Shown in pieces: positions 13,155 to 54,149 of a stretch of DNA of 64,000 nucleotides. A program made the position numbers and the translations under genes. The DNA comes from Coptis chinensis (Eukaryota; Streptophyta; Magnoliopsida; Ranunculales; Ranunculaceae), in NCBI GenBank assembly GCA_015680905.1, contig CM027381.1, positions 14,361,501 to 14,425,500 of the forward strand, written 5' to 3'. Position 1 is the first letter of the stretch. Each line of letters opens with the position of its first letter. The notes under the pieces are model-generated. The model was not told the origin of the DNA. It did not search any database and saw only the letters and a program-made list of their open reading frames with translations.

Positions 13155-13161
13155 ATTATTA

Positions 13162-13225: not shown

Positions 13226-13641
13226 CTATTCCTTGAACTTGTCTTGGTGGAGCTGAGCTGTAGTTGTTTGTTGGCCTAACATTTTGATTATTAAACCCCG
13301 GAGGTGTAAATGGTTGATTATTACGCTAACTGGAGTTGGGGTTTTGTCTCCAAGGTGCGTTAGGAAGGCTATTTATAGAGCAAACATTGTCCGGCTGTGA
13401 GGGTTGTTGTTCATAGACGAGAAGACAATAGGAGTCGGTATGCTCAAGACTAAAACAGAAATTACATGGAAGAGAGTTGATGTTCATGACATGAGTAAGC
13501 TTATATTGAACAGAAATGGCTTCTACCTTTTTTGTGAGGGATTCAATTAGAGTTCTAAGCTCAGGATCAGGTTTAACCTCAAACATATATAGTGGCAGCC
13601 TTGGCTGTGGAAAAAGAAGTAGCGGAGCGGGGATGTCGTTA

Positions 13642-13658
13642 CCCCCCCCCCCCCCCCC
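13642..13658. repeat. Poly-C run (17 C)
   Basis: A homopolymer within gag copy 2 at the position where copy 1 has only GGGG on the coding strand. Confidence 0.95.
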
Positions 13659-23160: not shown

Positions 23161-23693
23161 ATTGGTGAGGGGCTATACTAGAGCTCATGGTACTAAAAGA
23201 TGCTCCATCAAAATAGATATCACCAAAGCATTTGGTACGGTTAGTTGGCAATCTATTGAGATGGTAATGTCAAGGTTCAAATTCCTAGAAAAGTTCATTA
23301 AGTGGACCAAAATGTGCTATACTACACCTTTCTTCTCCATTTTAGTCAATGGCACACCTCAAGGTTATTTTGCTTGCTACAGGGGGCTTTGACAAGGAGA
23401 CCCTATTTCTCCCTATCTTTTTGTCTTAGTCCATCATGGAGATGCTAGGAGCCAAGTTGAATTGAAATGTGTCAGTGAAAGACTTTTCTTACCATTCCAA
23501 ATGCAAAAAGCTGAATATTACTCACCTATGCTTTGCGGATGACATTTTGTTGTTCTGTAAATGTGATGTTATGACTATTCAAACTGTCAAGAACACTCTC
23601 GAGGAATTCTATGCTTATACTAGTCGAAAGTTGAACAGTCATAAAACTACTTTGCTTGCTGGAAGTATGAGTCAGCATGAAGCACATGACTTA
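23161..23693 (+). pseudogene. LINE (L1-type) reverse transcriptase fragment
   Basis: Translation in three pieces: KRCSIKIDITKAFGTVSW and FIKWTKMCYTTPFFSILVNG (residues up to 23390), then after a stop QGDPISPYLF, then THLCFADDILLFCKCD with the FADD active-site motif. It aligns with the minus-strand LINE at 45205-47150. Both ends are cut exactly at CACTA terminal repeats: the right end of element A on the left and the left end of element B on the right. Confidence 0.85.
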
Positions 23694-24630
23694 TACTACT
23701 AAAGGAAGGGCTTTCTGTGTCACTTTTTTTTTTTTTATCTTGTGTCACTTACTAGAAAAAAGTGACACACAGAGTTTTGATGTGTCACTTTTTTATGGAA
23801 CGAGGGCTGATGTGTTGCTTCTAGGAAAAGTGACACAAGTAATTTTATTTTTTAGGTCACGTTATTTGAAAGTGACACTAGTGTTTTGCATTGTTGTGTC
23901 ACTTTTCAGTAAAGGGAAAACAAATAAAAAACAGCTACTATAAAAGAAGAAAAAAAATGACACAAGTAACTGCTGGACCAAAATACAAAACTATACTCGA
24001 AGTCTATTATCTAAAAATAAATACTCGAGACCAAAATATCAATAATAATAATTTTAAAGCGTTATAGTAGCTTGGTTACAGTTATTCTAACGTTTACATC
24101 CATGAGTTAAAAAAATAATAATAAAAGGGGATGACCATAAAATTGAAACCGCAACTTTTTGCTGAGATATCCTTTTTGCTCAAATTCAAGTTCTATTTTA
24201 TTTTCAAATCCCCCTTTTCATACTCTTCTCTTTTTTTATATAAAAGCCTAACAACTTGAATCATTGAATTTCCATCTCTCCCCATAAACCCTTTCAATTC
24301 CCTCTCTCGCTATCTCTCTCTCAGTAGCAGACAAACAACAACTCAGTAGCAGACAAGCCGGGTCAACAAGAGCTTGAAGGAGGAAGACTAACCAGGTAAA
24401 TGATTTCTGTCTCCTCTATTTGTTTGCTCTAGTTAACTGTTAGAGCACAAATTCTAATTGTTTTTGGTTTTTCAATTTGAGAATTATAGTGTATCCGACC
24501 TCTAGCTAAAAGGAGGTATCTTTAGAATTTTAACGTTATTTGCCATTTTTTCTTTTGTTGCAAGAATTTTTTTTATACCCTCTTTTTAGATCTTTCTGGA
24601 CTACTCGAGTCTATCCGGTAAGTTTTTCTT
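23694..24630 (+). mobile_element. CACTA element B, left end only
   Basis: It begins TACTACTAAAGGAAGGGC, one base off the canonical CACTA start, followed by about 230 bp of GTGTCAC subterminal repeats nearly identical in order to those at 28729-28960. A pyrimidine-rich leader (24240-24395) ending in a donor-like ACCAG/GTAAATG resembles a transposase 5' UTR. Similarity ends where a Copia element begins (about 24630). The right end is not identified. Confidence 0.75.
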
Positions 24631-28728: not shown

Positions 28729-28960
28729 CACTACTAAAAGAAGGGCTTTTTGTGTCACTTATTTTTTTTGTCTTGTGTCACTTACTAGAAAAAAGTGACA
28801 CACAGAGTTTTGATGTGTCACTTTTTTATAGAAGGAGGGCTGATGTGTTGCTTTTAGGAAAAGTGACACAAGTAATTTTATTTTTTGTGTCCCATTATTT
28901 GAAAGTGACACTAGTGGTTTGCCTTGATGTGTCACTTCTGGATGTAAAAATATCGAAAAC
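28729..28960 (+). repeat. Left terminal inverted repeat and subterminal motif cluster
   Basis: An 18-bp terminal repeat is followed by about eight GTGTCACTT or AAGTGACAC motifs in both orientations. In En/Spm-type elements a regulatory transposase protein binds short subterminal motifs of this kind; that function is inferred here from position and repetition. Confidence 0.88.
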
Positions 28961-29039
28961 AAAAATTAACAAATTATCGAAATAAATAAAAGCGACACGG
29001 TAAGAGTCACGAAAGTACTAATAATTACTTCAGATGCCA

Positions 29040-29353
29040 TGAAACTCAAAGTTATCATTTTGTGGCGCCCGCTATTTTTTTAGTTCCCTCCCAAAACAAC
29101 TAACTTTCTAAACCTAAAAGGAAACGGAAAGGAAAGAGAATAGAAATAGAAACTGAAGGTGTTTAAATCACTTCAGAAACTCATCAAAAAACGTAAGAAA
29201 AAAACGAGAAAAGCAAAACCGTCTCTCAGAACCGTTCTTCTTCCCAAATTCTCACCGGTAACGCTGGCTCTCCTCACCCATCTCGTCCATCCCTCGTTCT
29301 CTCGGTTAAACTTTCCAGCTCTCTCTCTCTCTCTCTCTAGCAAAAAAATAAAG
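29040..29353 (+). other. Probable 5' leader exon of CACTA transposase
   Basis: A pyrimidine-rich region (CTCTCTCT run at 29321-29338) ends in a consensus donor, TAAAG/GTAAGAT, at 29353/29354. It occupies the same place relative to the left end as the leader of element B. The next coding sequence is 2.7 kb downstream, implying a long first intron. Confidence 0.5.
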
Positions 29354-31675
29354 GTAAGATTTTTTTTTCGTTTTTATTTAATTGTCTATGTTTTGGATGC
29401 TATTAATCTGTTCTAAGTTTTGTTTTTGTGTGGTAGCAGTCTATTATGTTGCTCTTTCAGTTGTTTCTTTGGATTTTTTTGCTTTTATCATTTGTCAAAA
29501 GCTGTGGGATCTCGAACATATGCGTCGACCACCTCTAATCTCCCCCGTTTGATACGTGTTGTGCCCTTCTGTTTTCCTCGCACACTTTTATTGTTTGGTT
29601 ACCCACTGAAAGTTGTATTACAAAGAAAACGTTCTTCTATCCTGTTTTGGCCTCTGAGCAACTTTTTTGCATTCTTTTCATGTTTCAATATCTTTACCAA
29701 AAATTCTTTGAAGTATTTTTGTTTTTACTTAATTTTTTTTTCAAGTAAGAACCCTTCTCTGTTCATAGGAAAAGGGCATTTGACAGGGTATTCTCGTGAT
29801 GAATCTTTGCCGACATTAATAACACTTGCTTCTCCTTTCCAAGACCTGTTATTTTAGATTCCGATGCTAGTTTGCTTCCCCACAATTCTTTGTAGCTAAA
29901 AATTGATATGTTTTTTTTTTTTTTAAAGTAATGAACATGGTTTTGTGATTTTGTCTATTATTGTTAGATACAAATAAGAAAAAGTCAAATGTCATGCTGT
30001 CTCTATAACCGCGGTACCCCATAATAAAAGAAATACAAAATTGATATACTATTTGGTGGAGAAATCTAGTATAGGGAGGAGCAAATACATACAAAACTGT
30101 TATTGTATGTGGGTAGTAGTTGCAATTTATTAATGGGTTTTTTTTTTCTGTATGTGTCTTGTTTCTTGAAATGTATGTGCATCAGATCCATGTGCTTAAT
30201 GACTTCACATGCTTCTATGGAGGTCCCATATTTGTCGTCTCATATGTCATATATTGTTATCTCCATTATGTGGTGGAGGCACGATCCATTTGCTCTTTGA
30301 TTGCCATGTTACCCTGTGTTTCTTGCTGAAAGGGCTTTGGATTGCATTGTTTGAGCTCTATCAAATATATCAAGTTTAGATAACTATGTTAGTTTTGATA
30401 TGTCACTGTTGTATTTTGACTGAACGGTTCTTTTGGACACTGCTTTAGGGAAATACTAGTATTATGACTGCAGTATGCATTAGTGAAACTTAAATCTCTT
30501 TTTAATGGACCTTTAAATGTTGTTTGTACTTAATTGATTCATTTGTGCCCATTTCTTCTTTTGGATTTTGGTGAAGAAGCAATGCTTGGAACCTAGACTG
30601 GACTGGATTGTTATATTTTTTATGAATCATTTCCTATAGGCAGGGCCGACCCTGACTTAGGAGACTCATGAAATCGAAAGAGATTACACTTGTCATTGTG
30701 TCTAGCATTTTCTATAGATCTATAGGAATTTTATGGTGTACTGGATCAAAGATATATGGTTAGGTCTGTATATAGAATTTCATTGACAAATTGTCAGTTA
30801 GGACCCTTTGCATTGCTTTTGGTGCCCTAATGTTTCAACTAATTCATCCATCTTCTGATGGGCATAATAATGAATGAGTGCAGTTGTGCATTTTATGAAT
30901 GTTGCAAGTGATATCGGTTCATATGGCGAAGTCTTTTAGCCCCGAAAGTACGCAATTCTGAATTCTCATTTGTCGCATATATGTTGATTGTTGTATTTTC
31001 AATCTGTTGGTACATTGATATATATTGTTTGTAATTTAGTTATTTCCTGTCCTTGTAAACATCGGGATGAGAAGTTTTACAGGTACCGGTTAATGTACCC
31101 ACTTTCTTACATTTGCTAAAAGCCTAAAACTACTTAAGTAAGAGCCACTTTTGACCGGTTCAATAAATAAAAATTGGTTTTATATAAAAAATGCAAAACA
31201 ACATATGCAAATGGGAAGTAGGTGCACCCTTTACACTTAATTTGTTTCTCCTTATGGTATATGATTTAGTAAATCCCCTTTGGCTATTCGTTTTTAGAAA
31301 CTCGAAGTAAAAAAAAAGTGGTATGGTACATCATTTTGTTGACCGAAATGCAGTCATTGAAGAGATTTTTAACCCTTGTATATATAGCCCACCTCATCTA
31401 ATTTGGCGGTCCTGTTTTTCGAAAGTGAAACACTTATGTTTCAAATGAGATTGTCATCGTCGAGAGTCCATTTTGGTTTCGTACAACGATATGCGGTGTG
31501 AATTCTTGTAACGCAAGTTCAATGAAGTTTCCAAAGAAGTTATGTTCCACTAGAGAAGTCACCGTGGAACTCCATGTTTCATAAAGATTTTTAGTAATTG
31601 CATTTATGCTTTGTATTCTCAATCACAAAGGCAACATTCATTAATACTCCACGGCCCGCGGCCCTTCAGGACGGC

Positions 31676-31717
<42 letters not shown>

Positions 31718-32070
31718 CAAAAACGTGTCCGGCGACGATCCGTTTCCTATATTTTTGAAAAATGCCGTGTCCGCGTATCCGTGTCGTGTCGTATCTGTGT
31801 CGCATGTCGGTATCCGTGCTTCTTAGCTTCTATTTGGTTATTGAGAGTAGCCTAAATTGGTTAGTTAGATTTCCAATGTAATTTGATTTTGCATAATACC
31901 ATTATCATATCATCTTAGACTTACTTAATGTTTTTCCTACTAATGTGTCATGTGTTGATATCATCTTGCCATGATACTTTATTTTTGAATGTGTGGTCTT
32001 TGTACTTGATTTTTTTTTTTTTTTTTTGACTCTGTTTTTCTTTAAGAGATCGGTTTGTTGCATTTTGCTT
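29354..32070 (+). other. Probable long intron of CACTA transposase; no gene
   Basis: T-rich, with no coding signal. It includes a (TA)n run at 31679-31712 followed by a GC-richer patch with repeated CGTGTC/CCGTGTC words, and a GCAGGGCCGACCCTGA stretch at 30641 resembling one end of a hAT-type element whose other end I could not find. Confidence 0.5.
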
Positions 32071-32074
32071 CGAT

Positions 32075-35000
32075 ATGGATAAGTCTTGGATGTCCAAGGA
32101 CCGGTTAACAAAGCGAATATATTCAAGGAGTTGAAAGGTTAATTAGTGTTGGAAAGGAAGAAGGAAGTTTCATACGTTGTCCATGTAGAGATTGTTCAAA
32201 TATCAACGAGTTAACTAAGACTGAGGTCAGAAATCATCTTTTCGAACGTGGTATTAGCCAAGGTTACACTATTTGGCGGTTTCATGGCGAAAGCTCTCTA
32301 TTTTCCGAGACCCCGACTAGTTTTACAGAACAAGACACTTTTGGACATTATGATGAGGTTGAGACTTCTGAAGATGTTGGACATTATGATGAGACTGAGA
32401 CTCCTGAAGATGTTGGATATTATGATGAGATTGAGACTCCTGAAGATGTTGAACGCATGAGAGAAATGGCGAAGGCTGCAGAGGACCATTATACGACTGA
32501 TCCCGAGAAATTTAAGGAATTGCTTGAAGATGCCGAAACGCCTTTGTACGAGGGTTGCTCAAAATTCACAAAGCTATCAATAGTTATCATTTTATTTAAT
32601 CTGAAAGCAAATAGTGGGTGGTCTGACACAAGTTTTTCGAAGTTATTGAAGCTATTGGGACAGATGCTTCCTCAACCAAATCTCTTGCCGAAATCCTTGA
32701 ATGGAGTCAAGAAGACATTATCTGTTTATGGGATGAAGTACGAGAAAATACATGCATGTCCAAATGATTGTATACTCTATAGGGGTGATAAATACAAAGA
32801 TGAAACTATGTGCCCTATTTGTGGAGTCTCAAGATATAAAGAGAACAAGAGAGCGACCAACAAATCAGGTGGAGTACCAGCAAAAGTTTTGTGGTATTTT
32901 CCACCAATTCCAAGATTCAAGAAGATGTTTCAATCTGCCCAAACATCAAAGTCAATGACATGGCATGCCGATGAAAGGGTGGTTGATGGTAAGATCGCCA
33001 CCCAAACAGACTCTCCAAAGATGGAAGTTGGTTGACGAAAAATATCCGAATTTGCGTTGAAATCCGTAAATCTTCGCCTAGCACTTTCAGTGATGGAGTC
33101 AATCCACACCGCACTCTTAGTACTAAGTATAGTTTATGGCCTGTTATGCTTTGGTCACATACAACCTCCCACCGTGGCTATGCATGAAAAGAAAGTATAT
33201 GATGCTTACGATGTTGATATCGAGTCCAAATCAACTCGAAACAATATCGACGCGTCTACTTGGCACCCTTGGTTGACGACTTACATGTTTTGTGGGAGAT
33301 AGGGGTGGATGCTTATGATGTGTACCGCCATGAATCATTTATACTTAAAGCCGCTTTGTTATGGACAATCAATGATCTTCCCTGCGTATAGCAATCTTTA
33401 CGGGTGCACCGTGAAAGGTTATTTTGCTTGTCCTATTTTGGCGAGGGCACGCCTTCAACCAGGCTTAAGCACTCGGGAAGAACGTTATACACAGCCAATA
33501 GAAGATTTCTTCCGCTATCATCCATATCGAAGACAAAAAAAGCCTTCAATGGTAAAACAGAGCTGGAGGCACTCAACCCTTAACTGGGTTTGAAAGTACT
33601 AGAAGAAGTTGAAGGGATCAAAGTCATATGGGGAACAAAGGGAACCATTACGGGTGCTACCAATTGTTTTAAGAAGAAATCAGTTTTTTTTTAGCTTCCA
33701 TACTGGAGATATCTAGAACTCCGACATAATGTGGATTTTATGCACACGGAGAAAAATGTATGTGACAGCATTGTTGGGACCCTACTTAACATTCCACGTA
33801 AAAATAAAGACACCATTAAGTCTCGTCTTGACCTCCAAGAAATGGGTCTAAGGACAGAATTGGCTCCAACAATTGGGGAAAAGCGATCGTTCTTGCCTCC
33901 GGCTTGTCACACACTATCTAGAGATGAGAAAAAAAGACTATGCAAAACTTTGCATGAGTTAAAAGTCCCAAGTGGATACTCTTCGAATTTTAGGCCTCTT
34001 GTCTCGATGCAAGATCTAAAACTGCAAAATATGAAGTCGCACGACTGTCATGTTTTGATGCAGCAACTTCTTCCGGTTGCAATAAGAACAATTTTGCCAA
34101 AGAATGTGAGATGTGCAATTATTAGGCTATGTTCTTTTTTTAAGGCTATTTGCTCGAAAGTAATAGATAAGGAAAAATTGCCTCAAATTTAGGAAGACAT
34201 TGTGCTCCACGATGATGTTTCTTTGGAAAAGTATTTTCCGCCATCATTTTTCGACGTTATGATTCATCTAACAGTGCACCTTGTCAGAGAAGTTGATCTT
34301 TGTGGTCCTGTATTCTACCGATGGATGTATGCATTTGAGAGGTACAATGAATTATATATTACCCTTCAATATTTCTTAATGCGCTTTTCTTTATAAACAT
34401 TACTATTGTTCAATCTCTTAGGTACATGACCGTGTTAAAGGGCTTTATACGCAATCGAAATCGACCGGAAGCTTGTATTGCTGAGAATTACATTGCAGAG
34501 GAAGCAATTGAATTTTGTAGCGAATTCTTACCTGACTTAGATGCAATTGGGATTCCTCTCCGTAAAGATAACACTACCACAGATTTGATATCATCTGAAA
34601 ATCTTCCCCGAGGAAGTACCCATAGTCAAGTAGATAGAAAAACATTGGACCAGGCACATCTCTATGTGTTGCAAAACACAAGAGATGTTCAGCCTTACAT
34701 CGAGTAAGGTTTCTTTAGTTGTTCACTTTAAAAGTCTATTTTAGTTCCTTGGTTTCGGATTCCGATAGCTAACTAGTTTATTTTGTGGCCTAACATGATA
34801 GAGAACATATGAACTATCCAAGGAACAACAACCTCGTAAATAAAAAAAACCCACATGGTTGCATCTTTGAACACAATCGCCATTTAGTGATTGGCTTAGA
34901 GACAAGGTATATTATAAATTGGTCTTTTTTTTTTTGTTATTTTTGTATGTTAATTTAACTTAGATTAGGACTAAAATGTTTACACAACAATACCACGTGT

Positions 35001-35515
35001 TTTTCTTTGGAGGGGAAATCGACAACAAGGTGTCAAACACCTTGAAGTGGGTATCGAAGGGGCCTTTTGGCACATGTTTACAAATATTCTACCTATGTCA
35101 CTAATGGTTATCGTTTTGCCAAAAACGGCAAGACGCTTTTTTACGAGTAAATCAAAATAGTGGCGTGAGTTTGACAAACAACAACACCACGGGTTTCAAA
35201 GCATGAAAGGATCAAAACCCAATTTTTTCGAACATGTCTTTCTACGGTGTTATTGCTGAAATATGGTTGCTCGATTATACAAATTTCAAGATTCCAATGT
35301 TCAAGTGTGACTGGGTTGATAGCAAGAATGCAATTAGGAAGGATGACATGGGTTTCACTTTAGTGGATCTTGGTAGAGTTGGCTATAAATCTGATTCCTT
35401 CATCCTAGCTTCTCAGGCCGAGCAAGTTTTCTATGTACCTGATCAACTTGACCCAACGTGGTCAGTTGTTGTAGAATCTCCTCAAAGATGCTTTCCGCGA
35501 ATCTGACGACGATAA
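32075..35515 (+). pseudogene. TNP2-type CACTA transposase (Transposase_21), frameshifted
   Basis: This is the catalytic transposase of CACTA elements. The start MDKSWMSKDR opens a transposase-associated domain continuing FIRCPCRDCSNI and IWRFHGE in the next frame. Three acidic 12-residue repeats follow at 32343-32450. The long open part 32457-33035 carries HACPNDCILYRGDKY, CPICGVSRYK and KVLWYFPPIPR, characteristic of Transposase_21. After a frameshift near 33020, fragments continue (NLYGCTVKGYFACPI, DFMHTEKNVCDSIVGTLLNI at 33731). A TAG at 34190-34192 precedes a DUF4218-like block (DVMIHLTVHLVREVDLCGPV, about 34255) and IRNRNRPEACIAENYIAEEA. A DUF4216-like block lies at 35234-35505 (FYGVIAEIWLLDY). 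At least three frameshifts and one stop disable it. 35516-35887 is non-coding between the two genes. Confidence 0.9.
32343..32450 (+). repeat. Three tandem 36-bp units coding acidic 12-mers
   Basis: Units at 32343, 32379 and 32415, each reading GHYDExETxEDV-like residues in the transposase frame. They differ at a few bases only. Confidence 0.9.
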
Positions 35516-35887
35516 CGATGATGAGCTCGTTGATGCTCATGTAGGAGATGACAATTTTGTTGAATTGCCAAATGTTGACTCATTGGATGTTAATGACCGA
35601 ATCTCGGTCGGTTCGTCCGTGAAAGATTCTTGAGGGGCACTTGGGTTGAGCATAAAGAAACTTCTTGATTTATTAGTTTTCATTGTTTTTGTGGTGGAAT
35701 CGATATTTGGTTTGTTAATAAGAGATTGTGACCAACTTTTGTCATTTATGTATTGTCCTTACGATTATTTTGGTTCTGCTCAAATTATGATATCAAGTTT
35801 TTGCCATAGACATGCTTGTTGCTCTTGATCAATGTCATCTTCTAATGATTTTCCTATTCTATAGTTTTTTGTAAGGTTTAGTTAGAT

Positions 35888-36880
35888 ATGGATCCAAAAA
35901 CAAGTGCCAAATCATCTCGAGAAAAAGGAAGCATCCAATCGAGGAAGGTGACAATATTACAAGTGTTAGGGTCAAGCTAAAAACTTTCACTCACTAAGCA
36001 TTTTAAAGGTAAGCTTGTGGTGGAGTTTAATGCGAAAGGAAAGATCAAAGGTGCATTTATTCAAGCGAAGTTCAGTAATTGGGTTGGCACACTAGTTAAA
36101 AATATGGTTCCACTAGCTGAAAATACCCAAACCGGACGAAAGTTGACAAGCAAATAAAAGATGATGTATGGGATTCAGTGCTGGTAAGCGGTTGTTTTGC
36201 CTATTATACTGATTTTGAATTATTATTATTGTCTTTATAGAAGTGTAGACTCATCTCTGCCTTGGTTATTTGTAGGAAAAATTTGAGGCAGATCCTAAGT
36301 TTAAGAAAAAAGGATTGCAACAATGTGGTAAGATATGGCGGAAATTTAAGAATTATTGCACAAAATATTTTGTCATACCTTACATAGATGACCCCGATCT
36401 AATGAATCCACCAAAAATCTATCCGAATGTTAAGAAGCAAGATTGGGAGAAATTTGTAAAAATAAGGTTATCGGAAGAGTTCCAGGTATATATCTGTCAT
36501 TTCCTTTGAATTTTCATTTCTAATAAATTTATAATTTTGTTAAGGTGTGATAAACTAATATACTATTTTCATTTGGGCTGTTAGGAACTAAGCAAGATTC
36601 AATTGGAAAGAAGAAACTTGAACAAGTATAACCATCGACTAAGCAAATTAGGTTATGATGGCCTTGTCGATAAGATGGTAAGTAGATATTATATTTAAGT
36701 TTGTTAGATAAAACCAACGTAGGTAATCTAATATTACTTGGTTGGTTTGGTTATTTGTAATTGATAATAGATAGAAGCTGGGATACCTATTGATGAAGAT
36801 GATAGATCTCTTTTGTGGCGTTTAGCTCGACAAGACAAAAGTGGTGAATATCTTTGATGATGCCACAAAGGAGGTAGTTC
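35888..36880 (+). pseudogene. Second CACTA gene, N-terminal part (Transposase_24-like)
   Basis: The ATG at 35888 opens MDPKTSAKSSREKGS. Downstream pieces read LVKNMVPLAENTQTGRK (about 36090-36160), then after an intron-like break KFKKKGLQQCGKIWRKFKNY and PPKIYPNVKKQDWEKFVKIR (36300-36485), QLERRNLNKYNHRLSKLGYDG (about 36600-36660) and AGIPIDEDDRSLLWRLARQD (about 36780-36835). This is the plant Transposase_24 pattern with several exons. A frameshift near 36000 and loss of frame after 36840 are visible. The C-terminal portion resumes only at about 41190, beyond the captured host sequences. Confidence 0.75.
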
Positions 36881-37345
36881 AAAAGATTGTAAGTATCAAG
36901 CTCATCATTGTATGTGTGTTTTTGAAGCATATTTGATATTGTGTAGGATACCTAGCTTGATATATTGATGTATTTTTGTAATCTTGATCTAGATGATGTG
37001 GTTCCCTATCTAGCTTGATCTAGCTTCGATTTATGATTTTTTTTTTTGAACTAGCAAGCATAACGATGAACGCCCGACCGAGATTGAATGTAGTCTAGTA
37101 GTAGGCACTTCTAGGCACCTTTCCATCGGGGTTCGGTTCCAAACCCCTTTTGAGAGATAGCTTTCAAAGCTTCTACGGGCATGGCTTTTCACAGCCTTTG
37201 CTTGCTACCTTTGACTTAAGCATCTTATCCTCCAAGGCTTCCTTTCTTGAAAGCTTCCTCTCCTTTTAAGTGGAGTGATCTTTTCGCTTCCTCGACGATA
37301 CCCGAAAATAAAGATCGGGGTATCCCCTATTGAGTAAGCCAAAGC
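36881..37345. other. Unassigned insert with unusual base composition
   Basis: From about 37060 to 37345 the sequence becomes balanced in GC and non-repetitive, unlike the AT-rich flanks, with runs such as AAGCTTCCTCTCCTTTTAAG and CAAGCAAGCAACCGCC. The style recalls plant mitochondrial intergenic DNA, but I cannot confirm an organellar origin by eye. It abuts the WD40 fragment. Confidence 0.3.
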
Positions 37346-37735
37346 AAGCAACCGCCTTTAATTCCGACGGGAGCTCCTCGCTCGGAGGGTTTGATGGACT
37401 TATTCAAGTGTGGGACATCACTTCAGTAGTCTCAAGTGTACACTTGAAGGTCCGGAGGGGTATTGAGTTGGTTAGGTGGCATCCAAGAGGATATGTGGTC
37501 TTAGCTGGTTCGGAGGGATTCCACAAAGATGGATGTGGAATGGAGACAAGAATGTCTTTTGAATATGTTTTACGGTCATAGTAACAACATCGCGTGTGGT
37601 GATTTTACCCGTGATGGTAAAATGGTTTGTACTTGGTTCGAGGATGCATCATTGAGGATCTGGAATCCCAGAAATGGAGAGTGTGTGCATGTTGTTAGAG
37701 ATCATCCATATCATAACGGAGGCGGTGAATAAAAA
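37346..37735 (+). pseudogene. WD40 protein fragment, AAMP type, captured in CACTA
   Basis: Two open frames together cover about 120 residues of a WD40 propeller. The first (37346-37581) reads FNSDGSSSLGGFDGLIQVWD and GIELVRWHPRGYVVLAGSEG. The second (37529-37732) reads GHSNNIACGDFTRDGKMVC and DASLRIWNPRNGECVHVV, ending in RDHPYH. This run of motifs matches the plant angio-associated migratory cell protein-like WD40 family, which has GGFDGLIQVWD and VRWHPRGHVVLAGSEDS. A frameshift near 37540 separates the two, and only two to three blades are present. It lies on the sense strand of the transposon, between the two parts of its second gene. No transposon function for it is known. Confidence 0.85.
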
Positions 37736-38174
37736 GTTATTATTCTCTACCGCATCGTTTGGTTCTCTAATGCATCTCTTTTCATGTTAAAAATCTTCTT
37801 ATAGTTGTCTTCTTTTACATTTTTCACACTATCCTCTGTGTTACCCATCAAATTAATATTTGAGCTAGTTTCAAAGTGATGGGGTTGTTGGAAAATGTTG
37901 TCCGATTGTTCTTGGAGTTAGTTACAACTTATCTTCTCAAAAAGGTGAGATTTTTATTTTTATCTATTCTTTATAATAAGATTTCAGCTCATTTGCTTTT
38001 CTTGCTCCTTATCTTTTTGTGCCACTTCTTTATGGAAAGTTACTTTCCTAGTCACACTATTATTCCTCTCTTTCTCACTCCAAATAAGAATCAAATAAAA
38101 GCCTCTTTTAGTTTTTCTTCTTGGTGTTCATTACACTTGAGGTTAAATATACTGCACTATTGAGTCTTTGGTCT
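37736..38174. other. Intron-like or unassigned sequence between captured fragments
   Basis: AT-rich with T-rich tracts; the 95-aa open stretch at 37876-38163 has no recognised domain. It may be intron sequence carried along with the WD40 or glucanase fragment. Confidence 0.4.
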
Positions 38175-38449
38175 TGTTGAATGTATTGGTGTAAATTGGG
38201 GAACTATGGCCACACATCGATTTACCACCTAAGATGTAGTTCAGATGTTACAAGCTAATGGTATTAACAAAGTGAAACTATTTGATGTTTTGCTCAAAAT
38301 ACAATGAGTGCATTGGCTGGAAGTGGGATTGAAGTAATGGTAGCCATTCGAGCGATCACCTTTATCGATGACAAGCTACAAAAGAGCTAAGCAATGGGTC
38401 AGCAGAAATGTTACTAGATTCAATTTCAATGGAGTAAATATCAAGTAAA
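38175..38449 (+). pseudogene. GH17 beta-1,3-glucanase fragment, captured in CACTA
   Basis: Glucan endo-1,3-beta-glucosidases of family GH17 act on callose in the wall. Here the N-terminal signature IGVNWGTMATHRFTT is followed, after a stop, by VVQMLQANGINKVKLFDV, then in another frame by LAGSGIEVMVAI-like residues, and in a third by SYKRAKQWVSRNVTRFNFNG. This is the order of the first roughly 90 residues of mature GH17 enzymes. The exon ends at a donor-like ATCAA/GTAAAG (38450). Two frameshifts and a stop make it non-functional. The catalytic glutamates, which lie further downstream in the family, are not included. Confidence 0.83.
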
Positions 38450-39854
38450 GTTCCAGTTACTTATCTTTCTTGTTCAATCTTGAAGTAATTTAATTATATG
38501 AAGGTGTCTATTGCTGTGATCTAGACTTGACTTAAGCTATTTGAGTTTGTACTTATTTGGCATGCTATGCTTGTATTGTAGTTTATACCTACATCTGTTT
38601 TAATATTTTGTTTATAGACACACTTGAAATCAGCTTTAGTTAGATTAGTTGTTTACCATATCAGATATGGCCTCATATGGGAAGTGTATATCAATATTTG
38701 GTCAATGAATAGTAGTGCTAAAAAATGTTTTAGTTTATTCAGATTCTGTTTTGAATAGTTTATCTGTTTAAGTTGTGTGACTATTAGGTATAATTGTATA
38801 ATTCAAATCTTCATCTTAGAATATCTTCTTATGTTGATAATCATAAGGGGATCGAAACATGAAAAGGGCGCAAGTCCGGGATTAGAAGTAATTCAAATCT
38901 TCATCTTAGAACTGATTACGGTGGATATTCCATCACTAGTTCCCCATGTATTTATATTAGAAGTAATTTTGAAGCTGGTGATCTATCTAATGTTTCTGAT
39001 TGCCATAATTCTGCTTTTACATTCATTCCAAAATTTCGATGAAATAAGCCCATTTTGCGTTAAGTTTATACTATATACCGGAATATGTCTGAAATCAGAC
39101 TTTCAGCGAGACAAGAGGATACAGATGGGAGTGGTATTGAGTGATAGTGATTGAGTTTGTTCACTTGGCTCATGGAGGTTACATTTTTGTAAGAACGAGT
39201 ACTCTGAAAAAGTAGATAAGATTAACAATGCTTGAGTTGCTGAGTTGCTTATGAAAATCTGATCACTTATTTGGCTCATCTGAGTACTTGCTAACATTTT
39301 TTTTCTTGTGAAAATATATTTGATGCAGTATTTAATATTCTGGATCTTTTTTTTTTACCTGTTAACGGCTAGTTGATTAGAATTGCATTTTATTTTGTTT
39401 TAGTGATATATTAGCATTGGGAAGGTCATCTTGAATATTATATACTTAAGCATTCTTATGCCAAAGTTAATAGGTCGTGCACCAAATTATCTAGCAGACA
39501 ATTGTGAAGGGTTACAAGTTTTCTTTGCTTTAATAAAGCTTAAGTTCAACTAATGTAGACACTAGATGGTCACAGCAGTTTGAGAACGATTAATATCATT
39601 CGGCTGCAAAAGTAAAATGGGTTCAGTTTTGGCAAAAGGATATAGTTACAGATAGGGAGTGTTTTCCTCCGTAAACAGGGTGAAGACTCTCATAGTTTTG
39701 GTAAGGGAAAACAAGTTGTCGATGTTGAGGCTGGCGAGCTGGATAACAGACAGCCTATTTATTGTGATGGATTGGTTGCATACCACCGGCAGCCTATTTA
39801 TTCTGATAACAGGCAGCCTATTTATTCTGACTCTCATAGATCCTACTTGTTTTC
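38450..39854. other. Unassigned sequence within the CACTA capture region
   Basis: No recognised gene. It contains two copies of TAATTCAAATCTTCATCTTAGA near 38797 and 38889, and direct repeats of GGCAGCCTATTTATT (39750-39835) just before the ubiquitin ligase fragment. Confidence 0.5.
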
Positions 39855-40860
39855 CTGTCTTAGATGCTGCTGATTTGCCATCTGCTTTCCTGGAGGCTGT
39901 AATGGGTGGTGTTATTTGCTCTGCGAAGCTGTTGCATGCATACCACGCTGCTTGGATGCATTGTGCTTGAATAACAAAGGCCCGCAAGCCGTTAAGGATT
40001 GCAATGCTTTGAGGTCCTTTGTAAGAATATTTACTTCGGGGCGGTATGTACGGCTCTTTCTCGGGATGCTCCGGGATCATTGTCTACAGGATTGGATGAA
40101 CTCTACCGATATATGTATTTACCGCGATGTGTACTTGCATCACGGAATGTGTGTGCGTATGTGTACCGGTAATTGCATGTGTACCGGTAATCGCATGTGT
40201 ATTTACATGTATGTATTTACTACCGTGTAATCGCATGTGTATTTACCGCATGTCACGTAATGTATTTATCGCATGTCTACCGCGGTAATCGCATGTGTAA
40301 TCTTGCATCACGAATTAAACTCTACCGATATATGTATTTACCGCAAGTTACCGTACACTATTTTTTTCAGTATTTTGCTCTTCTTGTACCGTGTTTTGCC
40401 ATTTTGGCTATTTTCCTCGTCTTGTCCAAATGTTAGACTTGGTCTTGTGGTATTGGCGTCGCCCCACACTTGTGCCACTTTCATCGTGTAAGTTTTCAGA
40501 TCACAACTTTGAGGTTAACAACACCTCAAGCAAAGGGTGTTGAGCTAAGTTGGACTCTATATGCATTAACTTGGTCAATTTCTTGCAGATACTTTTCTAT
40601 TTATGGTTAGTTCATCCAATTGAACCACCTTACCTATAATAGTATAATACTATCTTATTTTCTACGACAAAGTAATATTTCTTTTTTCTTATTATAGTAT
40701 AGATATAGAATAAGTATGGCTCCACCTCCAGATGAAGCAACTATTGCTACTATAGTTGAGATGGGTTTTACTCGAGCCTTGAGGCAGGTGGAAACAAACA
40801 GTGGAGCCGCCAATCGAGTTATGAAGATATGGTACACAATCCAGTTGAACCATAACTTTC
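39855..40860 (+). pseudogene. UPL1/UPL2-type HECT ubiquitin ligase fragments, captured in CACTA
   Basis: UPL1/UPL2 are very large plant HECT E3 ubiquitin ligases. The first segment (about 39860-40100) reads DAADLPSAFLEAVMGGVICS in one frame, then IPRCLDALCLNNKGPQAVKD and NALRSFVRIFTSGRY in the next. This is a distinctive conserved stretch in the N-terminal armadillo-like (DUF908/DUF913) region of UPL1-type proteins. The second segment (40716-40830) reads PPPDEATIATIVEMGFTRA and LRQVETNSGAANRVM, the UBA domain of the same family, with several residues deleted after FTRA. The two are in native order but the intervening protein is missing. Both are on the sense strand of the transposon and frameshifted. 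Minisatellite-like DNA fills 40105-40345. Confidence 0.85.
40105..40345. repeat. Minisatellite-like repeats around CGCATGTGTA
   Basis: Several imperfect copies of CGGTAATCGCATGTGTA. The run ACTCTACCGATATATG followed by TATTTACCGC occurs twice (about 40107 and 40319), about 210 bp apart. Confidence 0.75.
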
Positions 40861-41189
40861 ACCAGATCTCGAGTCACCACACGCTTGACACGTATCTCGC
40901 CAACTGAAGTTGAGGTGTTGGCAAGATCTACAATTCCAATATATCGGTATCTACTCATCTTCTCTGTCTAGAAGAAAGATAAGAATAATCCGATCATAAA
41001 TTAGCTTAATTATTTACATATCGATATTATCTCCTACACATTGACTAAGTTTTCTATGATGGTTTTTAACGATATACTACTCTTGCAGAAACAGAATGAC
41101 AATCTTGAAAATCCGCCGTCTTCGTCTCTTCTTAGAACAGCCTGTGGTCGCTCATTCGTTGATTTTGAATTTTATATCTATTTTTGCAG

Positions 41190-43703
41190 GAGGAGCTGAA
41201 AAATAAGGTAGAGGAGGGGGTTTTGGCAACGGAAGGAAAGAATGACATACTTACTATGGCATTGGGAACTCCAGAGCCTAGTGGTCGAGTTAGGGCGGGT
41301 GGACAATATCGACTCCCACTATGTACTTCAATCTTCCTAATAAAATATCAAAGAAATATCACGAGGATTTGGAAGTGAAGTTGAAAGAGAAAGAAGCTCA
41401 AAACGAGAAGTTGAAAATTTTGGTGCTACATGTGCTTAAAGAACAAGGTGAGACTAATTCACCAAATGACGACCAATCTGTTGGAGCGAGTTGCTCAAGC
41501 AAGGACCAAAACTCGTCAACTCGTTGCCATTAGAAAATGTGGAATCTAATAGTGCCAAAAGTGATAATAGGCATAAGGTGATTGGCAAGTCTAAGCAGGT
41601 AAGTTTTTTGGCTTTAAATTTGTATTTTTGATTTTCTACATATTTCAAGTGTTCTCTTTAACTAAACTCATATTTAATGTATAGAGAAAAGATGATGGTC
41701 AACAAAAAAAGGTGTGACTTCAAAAAACTTAAGTCGAAAAAATGTACGTAAGCTCATTCTATAGTTGCCTTAACCATGTTATATTCATTGTGGTATAATA
41801 AATGCAGGGAATGATACGTAGCTTTTTTCATTCCTTTATTCCAAGTGCTTCACATATACTAACTTGATGTACACTTCGTCATATAGTCAAAAATAGACAA
41901 CGGAAAGAGCATTGTGGATTCCGAAAAACTTAAAGCTAAAGATGGGAAGGTAAAAAAAATATTTTCTTAATTAAAAAGGTTGATTAAATGTTTGTGTCAA
42001 ATTTGTTACTAGATAATCCTGTCTTTGTTTTGCTTATTTGTTATAGGACCAAGATTGTAGATTGGCATTGGGATCTAAAGACAACATTGTTGCCGAGGGT
42101 CGTGTTTTAGCAAGGAAGGGGCCAAAGGATACTGTTCACAACATGCCTTTGGGAGAGTCATATATGAAGGTCTCAATAAATAAAGCATTGTGTGGTGATG
42201 CCTTTCTCCCAGTTCGAAACGGCGATGAACATGTATTTGTTAAAGATGCAGTAAACTCGTTTGTGGCATGGCCTAAGGAACTTGTGATACTTAAAAGTGA
42301 CGAGGTAGTATAAGGATATGGATATTTGTATGGTAATTTATTTAATTTTGTTATATAAATATCAATTTTGTTCATCAACTTTTTGTTAGGTAGAGAAGCG
42401 TATTCCACTTCCGCGGGGCAGTATTCAATATAAGATCAGAAAGTTTGTGGATTGTGTCGACAAAATAGTGAAAGAAAACGCTTTTATAGAAGTTCCAATG
42501 GTTGGAACTCTTTTCCATGATGAGATGGAGGAAGTACGAGTTTCAAAAGATGAGTTGATGGATGTGTGTGAGAAGAGAATGTTAAATGGTAGCTGCATTA
42601 TCTCCTACATGAGGTATGAATAATTTGGTGAACTTATTTGTGTTAGTTATAATTTAACTTTTCATATGCGATGACTTAACAGAATGTATATATATGTTGT
42701 AGATATTTATATGCGACTTTTGGAATTGCTCGAGCAAAGTATGCATTTGGTAACCCAGAAAGTTTTACTATTTATACAAAAGATGATGAGAAGGCTCGAT
42801 ATATTCAGAAGTTGGCTGAAGAACACGGTGATCGTGTGCTTTTAATTCCTTTCAACACAGGGTAACTGTGTTTATACATTTGTAGTACATATACATTATT
42901 TTCATATAATTAAAATTATTTTATTTTTATTTTTATTTTTATTTATTTTTTTTCGATTGGTTATATAATTAAAAGTACTTAATTGAATTTGTATCCACAT
43001 AACTGGTCATGTAGGGGGCATTGGGTCTTAATGGTTCTTGACATACCATCAATGGAAGTGTACTGGTTGGATTCTTTAAAAGATTTTCGTGGGCCGCCGG
43101 ATCCAGCTTTTAAATTATTAGTAAACACGTGAGTTTAGTCTTTATTTATTGTATTTTTCATTGTATATTTGATTCTATCTTGAAAATAATGAGAATGAAA
43201 CAAATGCATTTTCATTTTCAGTGCGATCAAGACATCAAATATGTCCAAAGGAAAGAGAAAGATGAATCCAAATCCAAATTGGAACTACTAGTGACAGTAA
43301 GCTTAGTTTCTTTGGAATACAATACAAAGTATCTTTCAATTTGTGTATGTGTTAATGCAAGTATTAATTATGTATAGTGCCCACAACAACAAGGAGGGAT
43401 TGTATCTTATTATTATGTATTATGCTTTATCGCGAGATTTAGTAGAGGATCCTGGTCCACCGATAAAAAAGAAGGTGACTACAAAGTAGCATTATTTTTC
43501 ATATAGTCTTAGCTAGCTTATAAATTGGTGCATTTGTAAATATGGTAGGCAATGCATTGCCTGCATCATTTATTTTCATAATATTTATAATATATTTTTT
43601 TATTGAACAATTATTGGAGTTCTCTAGCAAGAAGAGTTACACCAATGAAATAGATGAACTTCGTCTTGAATTCATCGACTTTATCCAACAATTTATCGAG
43701 TAG
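41190..43703 (+). pseudogene. Second CACTA gene, C-terminal part with Ulp1-like protease domain
   Basis: Exon-like pieces: EELKNKVEEGVLATEGKNDI and TMYFNLPNKISKKYHEDLEVK with a coiled-coil-like KLKEKEAQNEKLK (41190-41533); LALGSKDNIVAEGRVLARKG to SFVAWPKELVIL (42062-42305); RIPLPRGSIQYKIRKFVDCV onward (42400-42615); YLYATFGIARAKYAFGNPE (42700-42865); and a peptidase C48 core with GGHWVLMVLDIPSMEVYWLDSL (His and Asp, 43016-43075). The final block has CPQQQGG (43379), DLVEDPGPP and a stop at 43701. The catalytic ECG-type Cys appears lost (see findings). Ulp1-like domains in CACTA second genes are a known plant pattern. Introns and frameshifts both break the reading. Confidence 0.83.
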
Positions 43704-44333
43704 TTAATTTGGGTAAGTGGGTTTCCATATTTTCCCTTTGTTTATGTATATATATACTTTTCTTATCGTTTTTTTTTTCTTACTTGTATAATATACCCTT
43801 CTTGATTCACTTGTTTTTTAATTTTATATACTAGTCATAGTGGAATGACGACTTCATGATATGATGCAGGTGTCATGGATCGATGGATCGATTAACAGAT
43901 GAATAGATGGCAGGCTAGGTTTTAGTGTTGGAAGTCGCGCACAATAAGCTAAGATATTGCTAGGATAGTATTGGCGTTATGTTTTTTTTTTTTTTTTTTT
44001 TTTTTAATTATGATTCTTTTGGTATTGGAATGACTTCTTTTGTTGAGAGTCAAACTAGATGAAAAATACTTGGTTTGATCGATGAAATCAATAGAAGTTA
44101 ATTGTTTTAAATGTTGTTTCTTTCTTCTTGAGTGGATGTTGTTTCCGTTATCATAAAGCGAAAGTTAAAGTGATTTTGGTTGTGATGTTTTGATAAATGT
44201 ATGTGGATGTTGTTTATGTCATAAAGCAGGTTAATGGGATTTTTGTTATGACGTATATGATGCAGGTTGAGAAATGAATACGATTGAATACTAAAATGAG
44301 AAAATGTTTTTAAAAAAAATTATTTTCATTTGT
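43704..44333. other. 3' non-coding region of CACTA
   Basis: AT-rich, with a T run at 43982-44005. It is nearly collinear with 21990-22600 in element A, which confirms common ancestry. Confidence 0.7.
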
Positions 44334-45144
44334 CTCACTTTTGAAAAAAGTGACATAATATCTATTCAAAGTGACACAACTGACCACTCTTATGTGTCGC
44401 TTTCTTTTTCATACGAGTTATATGGAGTTGATTCCCAAAAGTGACACAAGAAGCAAGGGGCTTTTGTGTCACTTTTGACGTACTTGTGTCTCACTTTAGT
44501 CCAAAAGTGACACAACTAGTATACTTAATGTGTCACTTTTGACGTACTTATGTCTCACTCTGGTCCAAAAGTGACACAACTAGTATACTTAATGTGTCAC
44601 TTTTAACGAAATTATGTCTCACTCTGGTCCAAAAGTGACACAACTAGTATACTTAATGTGTCACTTTTGACGTACTTATGTCTCACTCTAGTCCAAAAGT
44701 GACACAACTAGTATACTTAATGTGTCACTTTTGACGCATTTATGTCTCATCTCTAGTCCAAAAAGTGACACAACTAATATATTTAATGTGTCACTTTTGA
44801 CGTACTATGTCTCACTCTGGTCCAAAAAAAGACACACAACTAGTTATACTTAATGTGTCACTTTTAACGAAAATTATGTCTCACTCTAGTTCTAAACGGA
44901 TACAACTAGTGTCACTTTTGATAAGCACTGTGACACTCTTTCTTAAAAGTGACACAAGAGGTTATTCTTAAGTGTCACTTTTATTAACAAAAAGTGACAC
45001 ATTTAGTAAGGCTTTTGTGTCACTTTTGGTAGAACTTTATGTGTCGGGGGCTTATAGGTCACTCCAGAATTAGTTTCAAAAGTGACACAAGTGACTTCTT
45101 GTGTCACTTAAAAAGTGACACAAAAAGCCCTTCTTTTAGTAGTG
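44334..45144 (+). repeat. Right subterminal array and terminal inverted repeat
   Basis: About six tandem copies of a 64-bp unit (from about 44500 to 44890), each holding an inverted pair AAAAGTGACACA and TGTGTCACTTTT. Irregular GTGTCAC/GTGACAC motifs follow, then the 18-bp terminal repeat ending at 45144. Element A has about three units in the same place. Confidence 0.9.
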
Positions 45145-45204: not shown

Positions 45205-47150
45205 AAGCCTCAAGCCCGGTTTTATTCAAAATAACACATGCAACAAATTAGCTATTGTTGCCTCCTTAGGTAATTGGATTAATTGTCTTGCTTCCGCATT
45301 GAGGTGAAGACATTCATTTGAACACCAAGGCTCGCGCCACACATTGAGGCTCTCTCCATTTGCTATCAAGACTGTTATAGACTTGACTGCCTTCTTCCAG
45401 AAATGCTTCCTTTTTAGTTGATATTCCCATATCCACTTAATCCACAAGGAGTCTTCTCTGCTAGCTACTTTAAAAATAAACCTACAGTATGCTGCCACAT
45501 TCCATGTCTTTGCATCTATGATATTTAAGTCACCCTCCTCTTTACTAAGTCTGATAATGTTGTGACTGGCTTTATGTAATCTCCGTTCCATAGAAAGACC
45601 TGACCACAAAAACCTGTTGGTTAACTTTGAAATCTCATTTAAGACACCATTAGGCAACATAAATGTCTTTGCCCAATAATCTAGGAAGGATTGTAATACA
45701 GATTGAATCAGTTGTACTCTTCCTGCAAAAGACAACATTCTATTCTTCAATTCCAATTGGATATTCGAGAAGAAAACATCTTAACTAAAGGAAGACAATC
45801 TTTCTTCCCCAATCTTGATGCTGTGAGCGGTAGCCCAAGATATTTAACTGGCGGGCTGACTAGAGACACCTCCATAATTCCTGCCAAGTCCTTGCTTCCA
45901 TTCTCAGAGATACTTCCAGTAAACAACGTGGTCTTATTAGTATTGAGTTTCAGACCAGTCATACTTGACAAGCAAGCTAACACCTCCTTTACCCCTTCCA
46001 TTGAAGCTGCATCACCTTTACAAAATAACAAAACATCATCGGCAAAGCATAGATGTGTAATATAAAGCCTCTTACATTTAGATTGATAAGCAATCACATT
46101 TCTGCACATAGCTTGTTTCTTAAGACCACCTAACACCTCCATGATCAGAGCACATAAATAAGGAGATAAGGGGTCACCTTGCCGAAGACCCTTCTTACCT
46201 TCGAAACAGCCTTGGGGAGAGCCATTAATAAGAATATATATATGGAATAGGACAAAGATGTAAAACACATAGTGATCCATTTTATAAAGTGAGTAGGAAA
46301 TTTGAACCTTCTCAAAATCTTCTCCATTGAGTCCCAACTAACAGAATCATAGGCTTTTTGCACATCAATCTTCATAGAGCATCTATGGGGACCATGGCTT
46401 CTATTATATCCTCTTATGAGTTCATGAGCTAATAACAAGTTATCTTGTATGCTTCTGCCAGGCACAAAAGCTGATTGATTAAGATCAATCACATGAGACA
46501 TGATAGGCTTCATCCTGTTACTAATCACTTTTGATATGCACTTATATACAACATTACAACATGCTATAGGTCTAAATTCATCTAACCTTAATGGCTTATG
46601 TTTTTTTGGAATAAGACACAAGAAGGTTGAGTTGATACCTCTATGCATATAGTTATGATTAAACACATACTTGACAGCTTTTATGAGCTCATCTCCAATG
46701 ATAGACCAAGCTTTCTTGTAAAAAACCACATTAAACCCATCTGGACCAGGAGATTTGTTGTCCTGCATATCAAATAAGGCCATTTGTATTTCCTCTGAGG
46801 TATATAACTCTCCATGAACTTATCTGATTCCCCTTTACTCACTTAGGTTCTCTTCTTATCTGATTCCCCTTGACTCACTTAGGTTCTCTTCTGATTTCCA
46901 GCTCTTCTTATGCATTGACATTGCATTGTATGCCATCTTCTACTCCAAAAATACCTTCATAATATTGTAGAAAGGCTTTAGAGACCTCATTTGCTTCCGC
47001 ATATGCATTTTCGTGTTGCTCTTCTTCTTCTTCATGTGAGCCCCCATTTATTCCCTCCTTGAAGTAAGGTTGAAGTCTCAAGGTTTGAGCTTGTGTCAAT
47101 GATGGCCATCGTTTCATATGCCCTTCCATATATGTTCTTTCAGTAGACAG
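45205..47150 (-). pseudogene. LINE (L1-type) reverse transcriptase, 5' and 3' truncated
   Basis: Minus-strand order: NEVSKAFLQYYEGIFG (47000 region), a frame break, then reverse transcriptase from 46783 with DNKSPGPDGFNVVFYKKAW, STFLCLIPKKHKP, FRPIACCNVVYKCISKVI, QSAFVPGRSIQDNLLLAHEL and DVQKAYDSVSW. After a frame change comes GLRQGDPLSPYLCALIMEV, then HLCFADDVLLFCKGD (FADD active site), and KYLGLPLTASRLGKKDC, continuing into FAGRVQLIQSVLQSF and WREPWCSN (45756-45226). No endonuclease domain and no RNase H are attached. The nearest end of the CACTA insertion (45144) is 60-80 bp away. Confidence 0.9.
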
Positions 47151-48849: not shown

Positions 48850-49880
48850 TTTTTTTGTTTTTTTTTTTGAATTTCCAACTAGGGTTAGGCAGACTTACTT
48901 GTATTAAAATGAGAATCTTAAGTAAACTTTTCCTGTAACGATATTCTCCCTTACAATAGTAGTGAGTTTGCTATCTAGAGGAGGGACAGAGTAAACAACA
49001 TGATGTTCAAGAGAGGTACTTAGTCCAGTAAGGTAGTCTACTGCAAAGTTGCACTCCCTAAATACATGAACAAAATCAATAGATTCAAACCTAATACATA
49101 AAGATTGTATATGTCCTAATAAGTTCCAGGAACTCTATGGTGCTTCAATTCTTCTGTTAATGAGATTAAAAACTATAATGGAATTAGAATGATCACGTAT
49201 GATGCCACCGAATCCACCCCCTCTATCCTTACAGACCGAACCATCAGTATTAAGAATGAAACCCTCAGGTGGTGGTTTCTGCCAAATACATTTAGTAACT
49301 AAGCAGTTCTTGAGGTTAATGTTCATACCCAATCTACTCAAAAGCTCAGCTGTTACATTGAGGTTATCCAGCTCTCTGACTTTCGCTTACGGATACATAG
49401 TGTTGTTAAATCATCTCTCATTACTTTTAGTCCATACATAGTAAACACCCGCACATGCATAAGCTTTATAGATCTCAGTGTAGGGACCTCTTTGCTTACA
49501 TATCGTCAAGAACTGATGCCATTCATTGTTTGCATTGTTACTATGTATGTTGATACCCAAACTATGCTTAATACCCTTCCATATCTCTTGAGAGTAATTG
49601 CATTCAAAGAACAAATGGTCTGAGTTCTCTCTACTTTGGTTGCAGAAACAACAGGATGAAGCGTTCAAGACTTTTCTTTGAATTAATTTGTCCTGCGTTA
49701 GGATACTATTTGAGAATAGTTGCCAACCTGCAAAGGAATGTCTCGGCATAACCAACTTACCCCATACAAGCTTACCCCATCTTACTTTAGTGGCCCTTCT
49801 TCTCGAAGCTTGGTATGCAGATTTGGCACTAAATTGCTCCAATTGTGAGGGGGGCCATACCACCACATCCTTAGGGGAAT
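48850..49880 (-). pseudogene. LINE 3' part: zinc-binding region and RNase H, with poly(A)
   Basis: Minus-strand order: SAKSAYQASRRRATKVRWGK to CCFCNQSRENSDHLFFECNY (zf-RVT, CX2C...H...C, 49866-49411), then after a frame change PPPEGFILNTDGSVCKDRGG and GGIIRDHSNSI (RNase H, 49341-49135), with a decayed tail to about 48960. An A-rich tail (plus-strand T tracts at 48849-48869) marks the 3' end. The reverse transcriptase is absent, so the copy is 5'-truncated. It is not the missing end of the LINE at 45205-47150, because the order on the strand is wrong. Confidence 0.85.
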
Positions 49881-50442
49881 GAAGGAATTAATAGAGGTAG
49901 ATAAGATAGTCTCGTTTAATTGATAAATTGTGGTCTAGTTTGTTTATTTGGTACAACATAAACTGGGTGAATTGGCATTATCGCCAACTGAACAGGGAAA
50001 ACATGCAATAGCTAGGTTGACGTTGACCTCTTTAATTTTATGAAAGACAATTTTTTTATTTTTTTGGCTAAAATTGTGATAGTCTTCCTCCACTAATTAA
50101 GAATTTCAATTTTTGGGAAATATCATGATCATCCAATAAATCCAATAAATAAGAAGGATTTCAATTTATTCAAATAAACAATTTGAACTCCTATCGATTC
50201 TAACAACTGATTGCAGAGTTGATCATTGACCTTTCAATTCATAGACGTGGATTTTGGACATATGAATGGGGATATTCCCTATATTCACAAAGAAAAAAGG
50301 GTAATTATATTAGAGGGCAAAAAAAAGAAATACAGTTCATTTCTTCTTTTTCCTTCGGTAAGAGTAGACAGACATTTTTTTTAAGTTACAAATTAAATTA
50401 AAAAGTTTGGATAAACAGAAATTCAATATTTGACACTGATAA
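49881..50442. other. No recognisable gene
   Basis: AT-rich intergenic sequence between a LINE fragment and a MITE. Confidence 0.5.
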
Positions 50443-54135: not shown

Positions 54136-54149
54136 TCTTTCTACCTTGG

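Follow-up and report, generated by a model that had tools for sequence, protein, structure and literature searches.

A 64,000-nt stretch of the Coptis chinensis genome (assembly GCA_015680905.1, CM027381.1:14,361,501-14,425,500, forward strand), here called the window and numbered from its own first base, contains a 16416-bp element, copy A, that extends from 28729 to 45144 on the + strand with AAA on each side. Copy A is probably an old and now non-functional CACTA (En/Spm-type) transposon that took up some 4.2 kb of foreign sequence into an intron of its second gene, the composite later spreading and decaying. The original prediction for this DNA had described a structurally complete CACTA transposon carrying pieces of at least three host genes, and had suggested that these were acquired repeatedly at one internal position. 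Its central notion, host-gene capture by such an element, is supported by the location of AAMP, GH17 and UPL1 pieces within the gene of a single element.

The Second Gene and Its Fourth Intron

One piece of information came from the structure of the second gene of copy A. Its coding sequence begins with a frameshifted Transposase_24 part that lies 5' of the captured DNA, or cargo (35981-36888, +; Pfam and exon model), and that is divided into exons 1 to 4 at about 35990-36183, 36276-36485, 36585-36677 and 36771-36888, coding being resumed at 41190. The four introns are all of the GT..AG type, and introns 1 to 3 measure 92, 99 and 93 bp, whereas intron 4 (36889-41189, +; GTAAGT..TTTGCAG) measures 4301 bp and contains the whole cargo. 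On the 3' side of the cargo, Transposase_24 resumes at 41190-41600 (+; Pfam and protein alignments), followed by a Transposase_23 (TNP1)-like part at 42047-42313 (+; Pfam E=0.00024, also matched by the Acer saccharum protein P0011) and by a broken Ulp1 (Peptidase_C48)-like part at 42680-43489 (+; Pfam E=4.8e-5 with joined pieces). The joined translation of the second gene, with X at the frame breaks, matched Transposase_24 (PF03004) over residues 120-247 with E=3.4e-5, the match of the joined exons reaching 24.5 bits, under the 28.7-bit cut-off. Furthermore, P0011 and the Prunus armeniaca protein P0010 aligned through the junction (query residue 206) without the cargo. Because both proteins read through and the Transposase_24 match spans the junction, the coding sequence on either side of the cargo is that of one ancestral gene, which the cargo interrupts at an exon junction inside the Transposase_24 domain.

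This arrangement corrects the position proposed in the original prediction: the cargo does lie within the second gene, but in an intron that splits Transposase_24, and not between the Transposase_24 and Ulp1 parts. It also bears on the notion of a native host locus caught between two half-elements from separate insertions, which is ruled out by the matching terminal inverted repeats (TIRs) and AAA flanks, by the read-through of P0010 and P0011, and by the extension of Transposase_24 across the cargo; the flanking coding sequence belongs to one gene.

The Ulp1 part deserves a separate comment. At the site where the catalytic cysteine would be expected from the motif, the translation reads CPQQQGGIVSYYY, and alignment of copy B, a partial member of the same family located upstream, indicates that a TGC codon is present there but shifted by an indel. 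Judged from this motif and the translations, the Ulp1 part of copy A appears to lack its catalytic Cys.

Ends, Class and Coding Capacity of the Element

Copy A is complete from end to end, as its termini, TIRs, AAA flanks and distribution of subterminal repeats indicate. The 18-nt terminus CACTACTAAAAGAAGGGC has one exact copy per strand, at 28729-28746 (+) and 45127-45144 (-), and when up to three mismatches were allowed four matches were found in the window, versus 0.09 expected from shuffles. The TIR arms are 35 nt long (28729-28763, + and 45110-45144, -), start with CACTA and show 97% complementarity, which is perfect over the first 18 nt. The flanks read ..AGAAA/CACTA..TAGTG/AAAAT.. (the slashes marking the element borders), and the AAA on both sides, a 3-mer agreement with a chance probability of about 0.02, is compatible with a 3-bp target site duplication (TSD). 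With both strands summed, the 5' 250 bp contain 7 occurrences of the subterminal motif AAGTGACAC and the 3' 845 bp contain 22, with none in the intervening 15.3 kb; repeat-family analysis and motif counts also delimited 64-bp tandem subterminal repeats with the GTGACAC/GTGTCAC motif at 44401-44784 (+). The terminal CACTA motif does not occur in 28979-44299 in either orientation. Copy A thus displays the features of the CACTA (En/Spm) superfamily, namely CACTA TIRs, a 3-bp TSD, subterminal repeats in two orientations, Transposase_21 and a Transposase_24-type second gene. The delimitation originally proposed from the termini and the AAA duplication is therefore borne out by the perfect 18-nt ends, the 35-nt TIRs, the flanking AAA and the restriction of subterminal repeats to the ends.

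The coding capacity of the element is a different matter. The first gene, of the TNP2 transposase type, occupies 32109-35506 (+) and, according to Pfam, comprises Transpos_assoc (from 32109), Transposase_21 (33016-33234 and 33083-33580) and DUF4216 (35207-35506), all on the + strand. The Transposase_21 domain (PF02992) is distributed over two frames whose stretches overlap, with E=4.8e-30 for one and 4.5e-8 for the other and a third frame at 0.09, and DUF4218 is likewise divided between two frames in the Pfam matches. Since each of these domains is split, the transposase of copy A is broken, and the intact transposase reading frame expected of an autonomous element is missing. Hence, the description of the element as structurally complete holds for its ends and outline but not for its coding sequence, which is dead: the reading frame changes within the transposase domain, and the Ulp1 part and the cargo are broken.

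The Captured Pieces

The cargo comprises four pieces, all on the + strand and in the sense orientation with respect to the second gene. The first is an AAMP (WD40) pseudogene piece at 37354-37723 (+) that corresponds to residues 113-237 of the 394 residues of P0001, the full-length Coptis AAMP; it is distributed over three frames in blocks at 37354-37515 (+1), 37530-37559 (+3) and 37559-37723 (+2), contains no internal intron and matched P0001 by tblastn with E=2e-39. The second, at about 38160-38450 (+), is a GH17 beta-1,3-glucanase pseudogene piece that represents the N-terminal quarter of the domain, also in three frames, and that gave matches to PF00332 (E=8e-8) and to the PDB glucanase 1ghs (E=6e-6) on manually joined pieces from these three frames. 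This piece terminates in AATATCAA and is followed by GTAAAG, which would fit a retained intron donor. The third is a frameshifted UPL1/HUWE1-type DUF913 pseudogene piece at 39646-40110 (+; Pfam and tblastn), in which DUF913 gave E=5.5e-12 at 39925-40059 and 0.029 in the adjacent frame. The fourth is a weak UBA-like piece at 40698-40907 (+; UBA E=0.0018 and 0.08), the better match having 18.5 bits, below the 22.4 cut-off. Considering the order of domains in UPL1, this last piece on the same strand could derive from further along that UPL1 gene.

The best protein matches of the cargo are from Coptis chinensis itself, and the cargo is pseudogenic. The proposed content of at least three host genes therefore stands as regards the AAMP-type WD40, GH17 and UPL1 (DUF913) pieces in sense orientation, whereas the second UPL (UBA-like) piece is weak. 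Two other segments of the intron merit mention. Short imperfect repeats (families D1, D3-D5 and D8) lie 3' of the DUF913 piece at 40111-40345, and a GC-rich stretch, recognized by its base composition, adjoins the AAMP piece at 37061-37350, with 46% GC versus 31% for 36891-37060 and 37724-38150. This stretch is possibly organellar, perhaps mitochondrial; two of its 22-23-mers had no exact match in viral_contigs, which is not a test of organelle origin.

Cargo might be spliced into a transcript of the second gene, as the original prediction suggested. The canonical outer splice sites of intron 4, if used, would excise the cargo entirely.

Relatives of the Cargo in Other Coptis Proteins

A clue to the history of the cargo was derived from protein searches. 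All eight candidates examined with the AAMP piece were matched, including five from C. chinensis, one from Thalictrum and one from Stephania. One of the C. chinensis proteins, P0004 (locus IFM89_002808), consists of a DHQS part (Pfam E=6.7e-40), an AAMP part and a UPL1 part. The AAMP part of P0004 is identical to P0001 in 96 of 99 residues, and the three differences (W153L, S191N and P200R in the numbering of P0001) are all common to the window, whose AAMP piece differs from P0001 in 11 of 84 aligned residues. In contrast, P0002, P0006 and P0008 are without these three substitutions. By our own arithmetic, the chance that P0004 and the window would agree on all three is well under 1 in 100,000. 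In addition, P0004 residues 228-234, 239-247 and 225-282 matched, in this order, 39651-39671, 39677-39703 and 39830-39967 of the window by tblastn. With the DHQS part of P0004, tblastn against the window gave nothing below E=2.3, so P0004 is encoded elsewhere than in the window.

Given that P0004 has the same pair of pieces and that all three of its substitutions match the window, the AAMP and UPL1 pieces can be regarded as one inherited composite, and the proposal that they travelled together is well supported by these alignments. This leaves the repeated acquisition at one position suggested in the original prediction unsupported where these two pieces, at the least, are concerned. A stepwise entry into the same intron, which would make it a capture hot spot, has in its favor that three source genes are represented within 4.3 kb and that four of four pieces are in sense. 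We consider it very unlikely, as the AAMP and UPL1 pieces have a common history with P0004 and as four same-strand pieces would be expected by chance in 1 of 8 cases even if they were independent (own arithmetic).

It is plausible that the CACTA family of copy A took the AAMP-UPL1 pair to the P0004 locus. A bolder version of this idea, in which the CACTA-borne AAMP-UPL1 pair acts as a mobile exon cassette that is dropped into host introns and joined to their exons, with the DHQS-AAMP-UPL1 model as a live example, is quite improbable in our estimation. If it were true, intron 4 would represent a sheltered site where captures accumulate without harm to the gene of the element.

The composite might also have been assembled outside copy A, for instance through a different transposon or the repair of a break elsewhere, and have entered the CACTA intron once and ready-made. 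Here the other C. chinensis proteins are relevant, because AAMP pieces are found with other partners in P0006, a gene model in which Pfam recognizes kelch and AAMP parts, and in P0008, whose N-terminal part may be kelch-derived as judged by eye. These two AAMP-bearing gene models lie on contigs of 97.19 Mb and 100.39 Mb, respectively, and a UPL1 piece stands behind an anoctamin-like part in P0009, so that the mixing of pieces would be ongoing at several Coptis loci. On the other hand, the cargo is not bounded by inverted repeats and no Helitron-type 3' end was found in 36700-41300 by a strict rule without positive control, and the models of P0006, P0008 and P0009 are possibly annotation chimeras. 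For these reasons a ready-made entry is thought to be unlikely, although less so than the other alternatives considered in this work. The P0006 and P0009 chimeras suggest either that AAMP and UPL1 pieces are often shuffled in Coptis or that neighboring genes were wrongly merged in the gene models.

P0009 itself is a C. chinensis gene model on a 124.61-Mb contig, in which the anoctamin-like part is followed by a UPL1 DUF913 part. It matched human HUWE1 with E=2.8e-12 and was the sole match listed among 75 candidates in the protein search with the UPL1 piece, P0004 being unlisted despite its tblastn match.

Two possible carriers of the cargo were also considered. A nested Helitron is disfavored, as no Helitron 3' end (CTRR after a hairpin, then T) was found on either strand of 36700-41300 under a strict rule that had no positive control. 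A nested TIR element is disfavored as well: five inverted pairs of 14 nt or longer were found, and none of them bounds the cargo. One of these, a pair of 14 nt at 37191-37204 and 40527-40540, encloses a large part of the cargo, but is short and lies off its edges.

A Proposed Origin for Copy A

These observations could be integrated in a model that begins with a break or an excision gap in the element, whose error-prone repair would have copied genomic DNA from several templates. For such multi-template repair, the Chenopodium study discussed below refers, in the text available from it, to Rubin and Levy (PMC8978399). The pieces would have entered as genomic DNA, because the GH17 piece continues into a GTAAAG donor. 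Selection on the second gene may then have retained only intronic and spliceable captures, the intronic site sparing the gene because the cargo could be spliced out. Next, the composite would have moved by transposition to at least one other locus and, afterwards, the element, its genes, the cargo and all copies would have decayed.

Several points weigh against this origin. The case is built on the DNA of the window and on protein sequences, with one complete element, and both the repair mechanism and the selection of an intronic site are drawn from that single case. The comparison of the junction with Prunus and Acer concerns protein sequences, and the protein search with the second gene gave three matches among 833 candidates, including those from Prunus and Acer and no Coptis relative. 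Finally, P0004 is a gene model, which weakens its use as a composite locus.

Other Family Copies and Surroundings of the Element

The CACTA family to which copy A belongs is old. Two further members, both partial, lie 5.5 kb upstream of copy A and in the same orientation: copy B (21355-23160, +) is the 3' end of a second element with an internal deletion and its last two bases altered, and copy C (23694-23904, +), recognized by its terminus and by alignment, is the 5' end of a third. For copy B, the Kimura two-parameter distance to copy A was 0.084 over 1206 sites and 0.073 over another 172; for copy C it was 0.076 over 209 sites. A reverse-transcriptase piece of a long interspersed nuclear element (LINE) at 23162-23693 fills exactly the interval that separates B's 3' end from C's 5' end. 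In the sense in which it is described for Pack-TYPE elements, local insertion in the same orientation would fit the pattern seen here (PMC8903248).

This neighborhood is relevant to the tandem-insertion model of Pack-TYPE capture set out in section 9 of that source (PMC8903248), in which neighboring copies fuse and take the intervening DNA along. Copies B and C, with the same orientation 5.5 kb upstream and a LINE piece exactly between them, are what the model would start from. However, under this model traces of inner ends should persist next to the captured DNA, and 28979-44299 is free of the terminal motif; moreover, the cargo breaks an exon-exon junction of a single gene. As an origin for the cargo of copy A, tandem insertion is therefore highly improbable, and capture within intron 4 by repair remains the preferred explanation.

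Some additional features of the window were observed. In 21355-23904, B, the LINE piece and C are contiguous without a gap, and the outermost bases of both element ends are altered. Just upstream of B, the segment 21251-21344 repeats B's 22037-22127 at 84.5%, as though copied during a rearrangement. Two retrotransposon copies, at 1-2625 and 11895-14515, have opposite orientations and are 78.5% identical; gag (PF03732) is recognizable in them, together with aspartyl protease-like parts. Directly downstream of copy A, a LINE with RVT_1 and zf-RVT lies at 45229-46819 and 49414-49887 (-), and is followed by an apparently intact LOB-domain (LBD) gene at 53293-54195 (-), likely an ordinary host gene, and by a hAT transposase dimerization fragment at 59959-60369 (PF05699, E=1.7e-5). 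Rfam at gathering thresholds gave no matches across the window.

Comparison with Known Systems

Gene capture by CACTA elements is already known, and copy A is a further gene-capturing CACTA, like Tgm-Express1 of soybean. The Tpn1 family of Japanese morning glory is said to include En/Spm-related elements that capture host genes, to judge by the title of the 2004 work of Kawasaki and Nitasaka. Within the open-licence literature in its accessible portions, no report was found of a CACTA element whose second gene holds a multi-gene cargo in one of its introns, and in the main text of the C. chinensis genome paper, as far as available, DNA transposons are given as 5.3% and the word "CACTA" is absent (PMC8172641).

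In grapevine, part of one host gene is present in two CACTA copies of Cactavine-5, and the available part of that account deals with a single gene and describes no intronic composite (PMC2528002). The Chenopodium CACTA elements are long, one of them reaching 16523 bp; they have acquired domains and fragments of genes and also contain tandem repeats, and Peptidase_C48 is mentioned in the portion of the study at hand. Their captures lie in a 5' region outside the coding sequence (PMC8978399), whereas copy A has its own inside a second-gene intron. As for Pack-TYPE elements, these are non-autonomous by definition, and the sections available class transposase-matching elements separately (PMC8903248). 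Copy A shares with Pack-CACTA elements the CACTA ends around host coding DNA, but it is not transposase-free and, since it has transposase sequence, does not qualify as a Pack-CACTA under the definition given there (PMC8903248).

The donor genes and the copies of the element can be compared across the C. chinensis genome, and since a C. chinensis gene model contains a related composite, the capture of the pieces, their spread and perhaps the joining of exons could be traced in an early-branching eudicot. The closest parallel is provided by Tgm-Express1, which according to the available text is 5.7 kb long, carries five gene fragments with exons and introns retained, and has its exons spliced into host transcripts, as found by reverse-transcription PCR (PMC1947982). 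Both are CACTA elements that contain fragments of a number of host genes unrelated to one another; unlike Tgm-Express1, copy A measures 16.4 kb, is known from DNA alone, has a recognizable transposase and second gene, and holds the cargo in its own intron. What copy A adds is thus a long element with captured DNA inside an intron of its own second gene, an arrangement that would explain how a capture can be carried without losing that gene.

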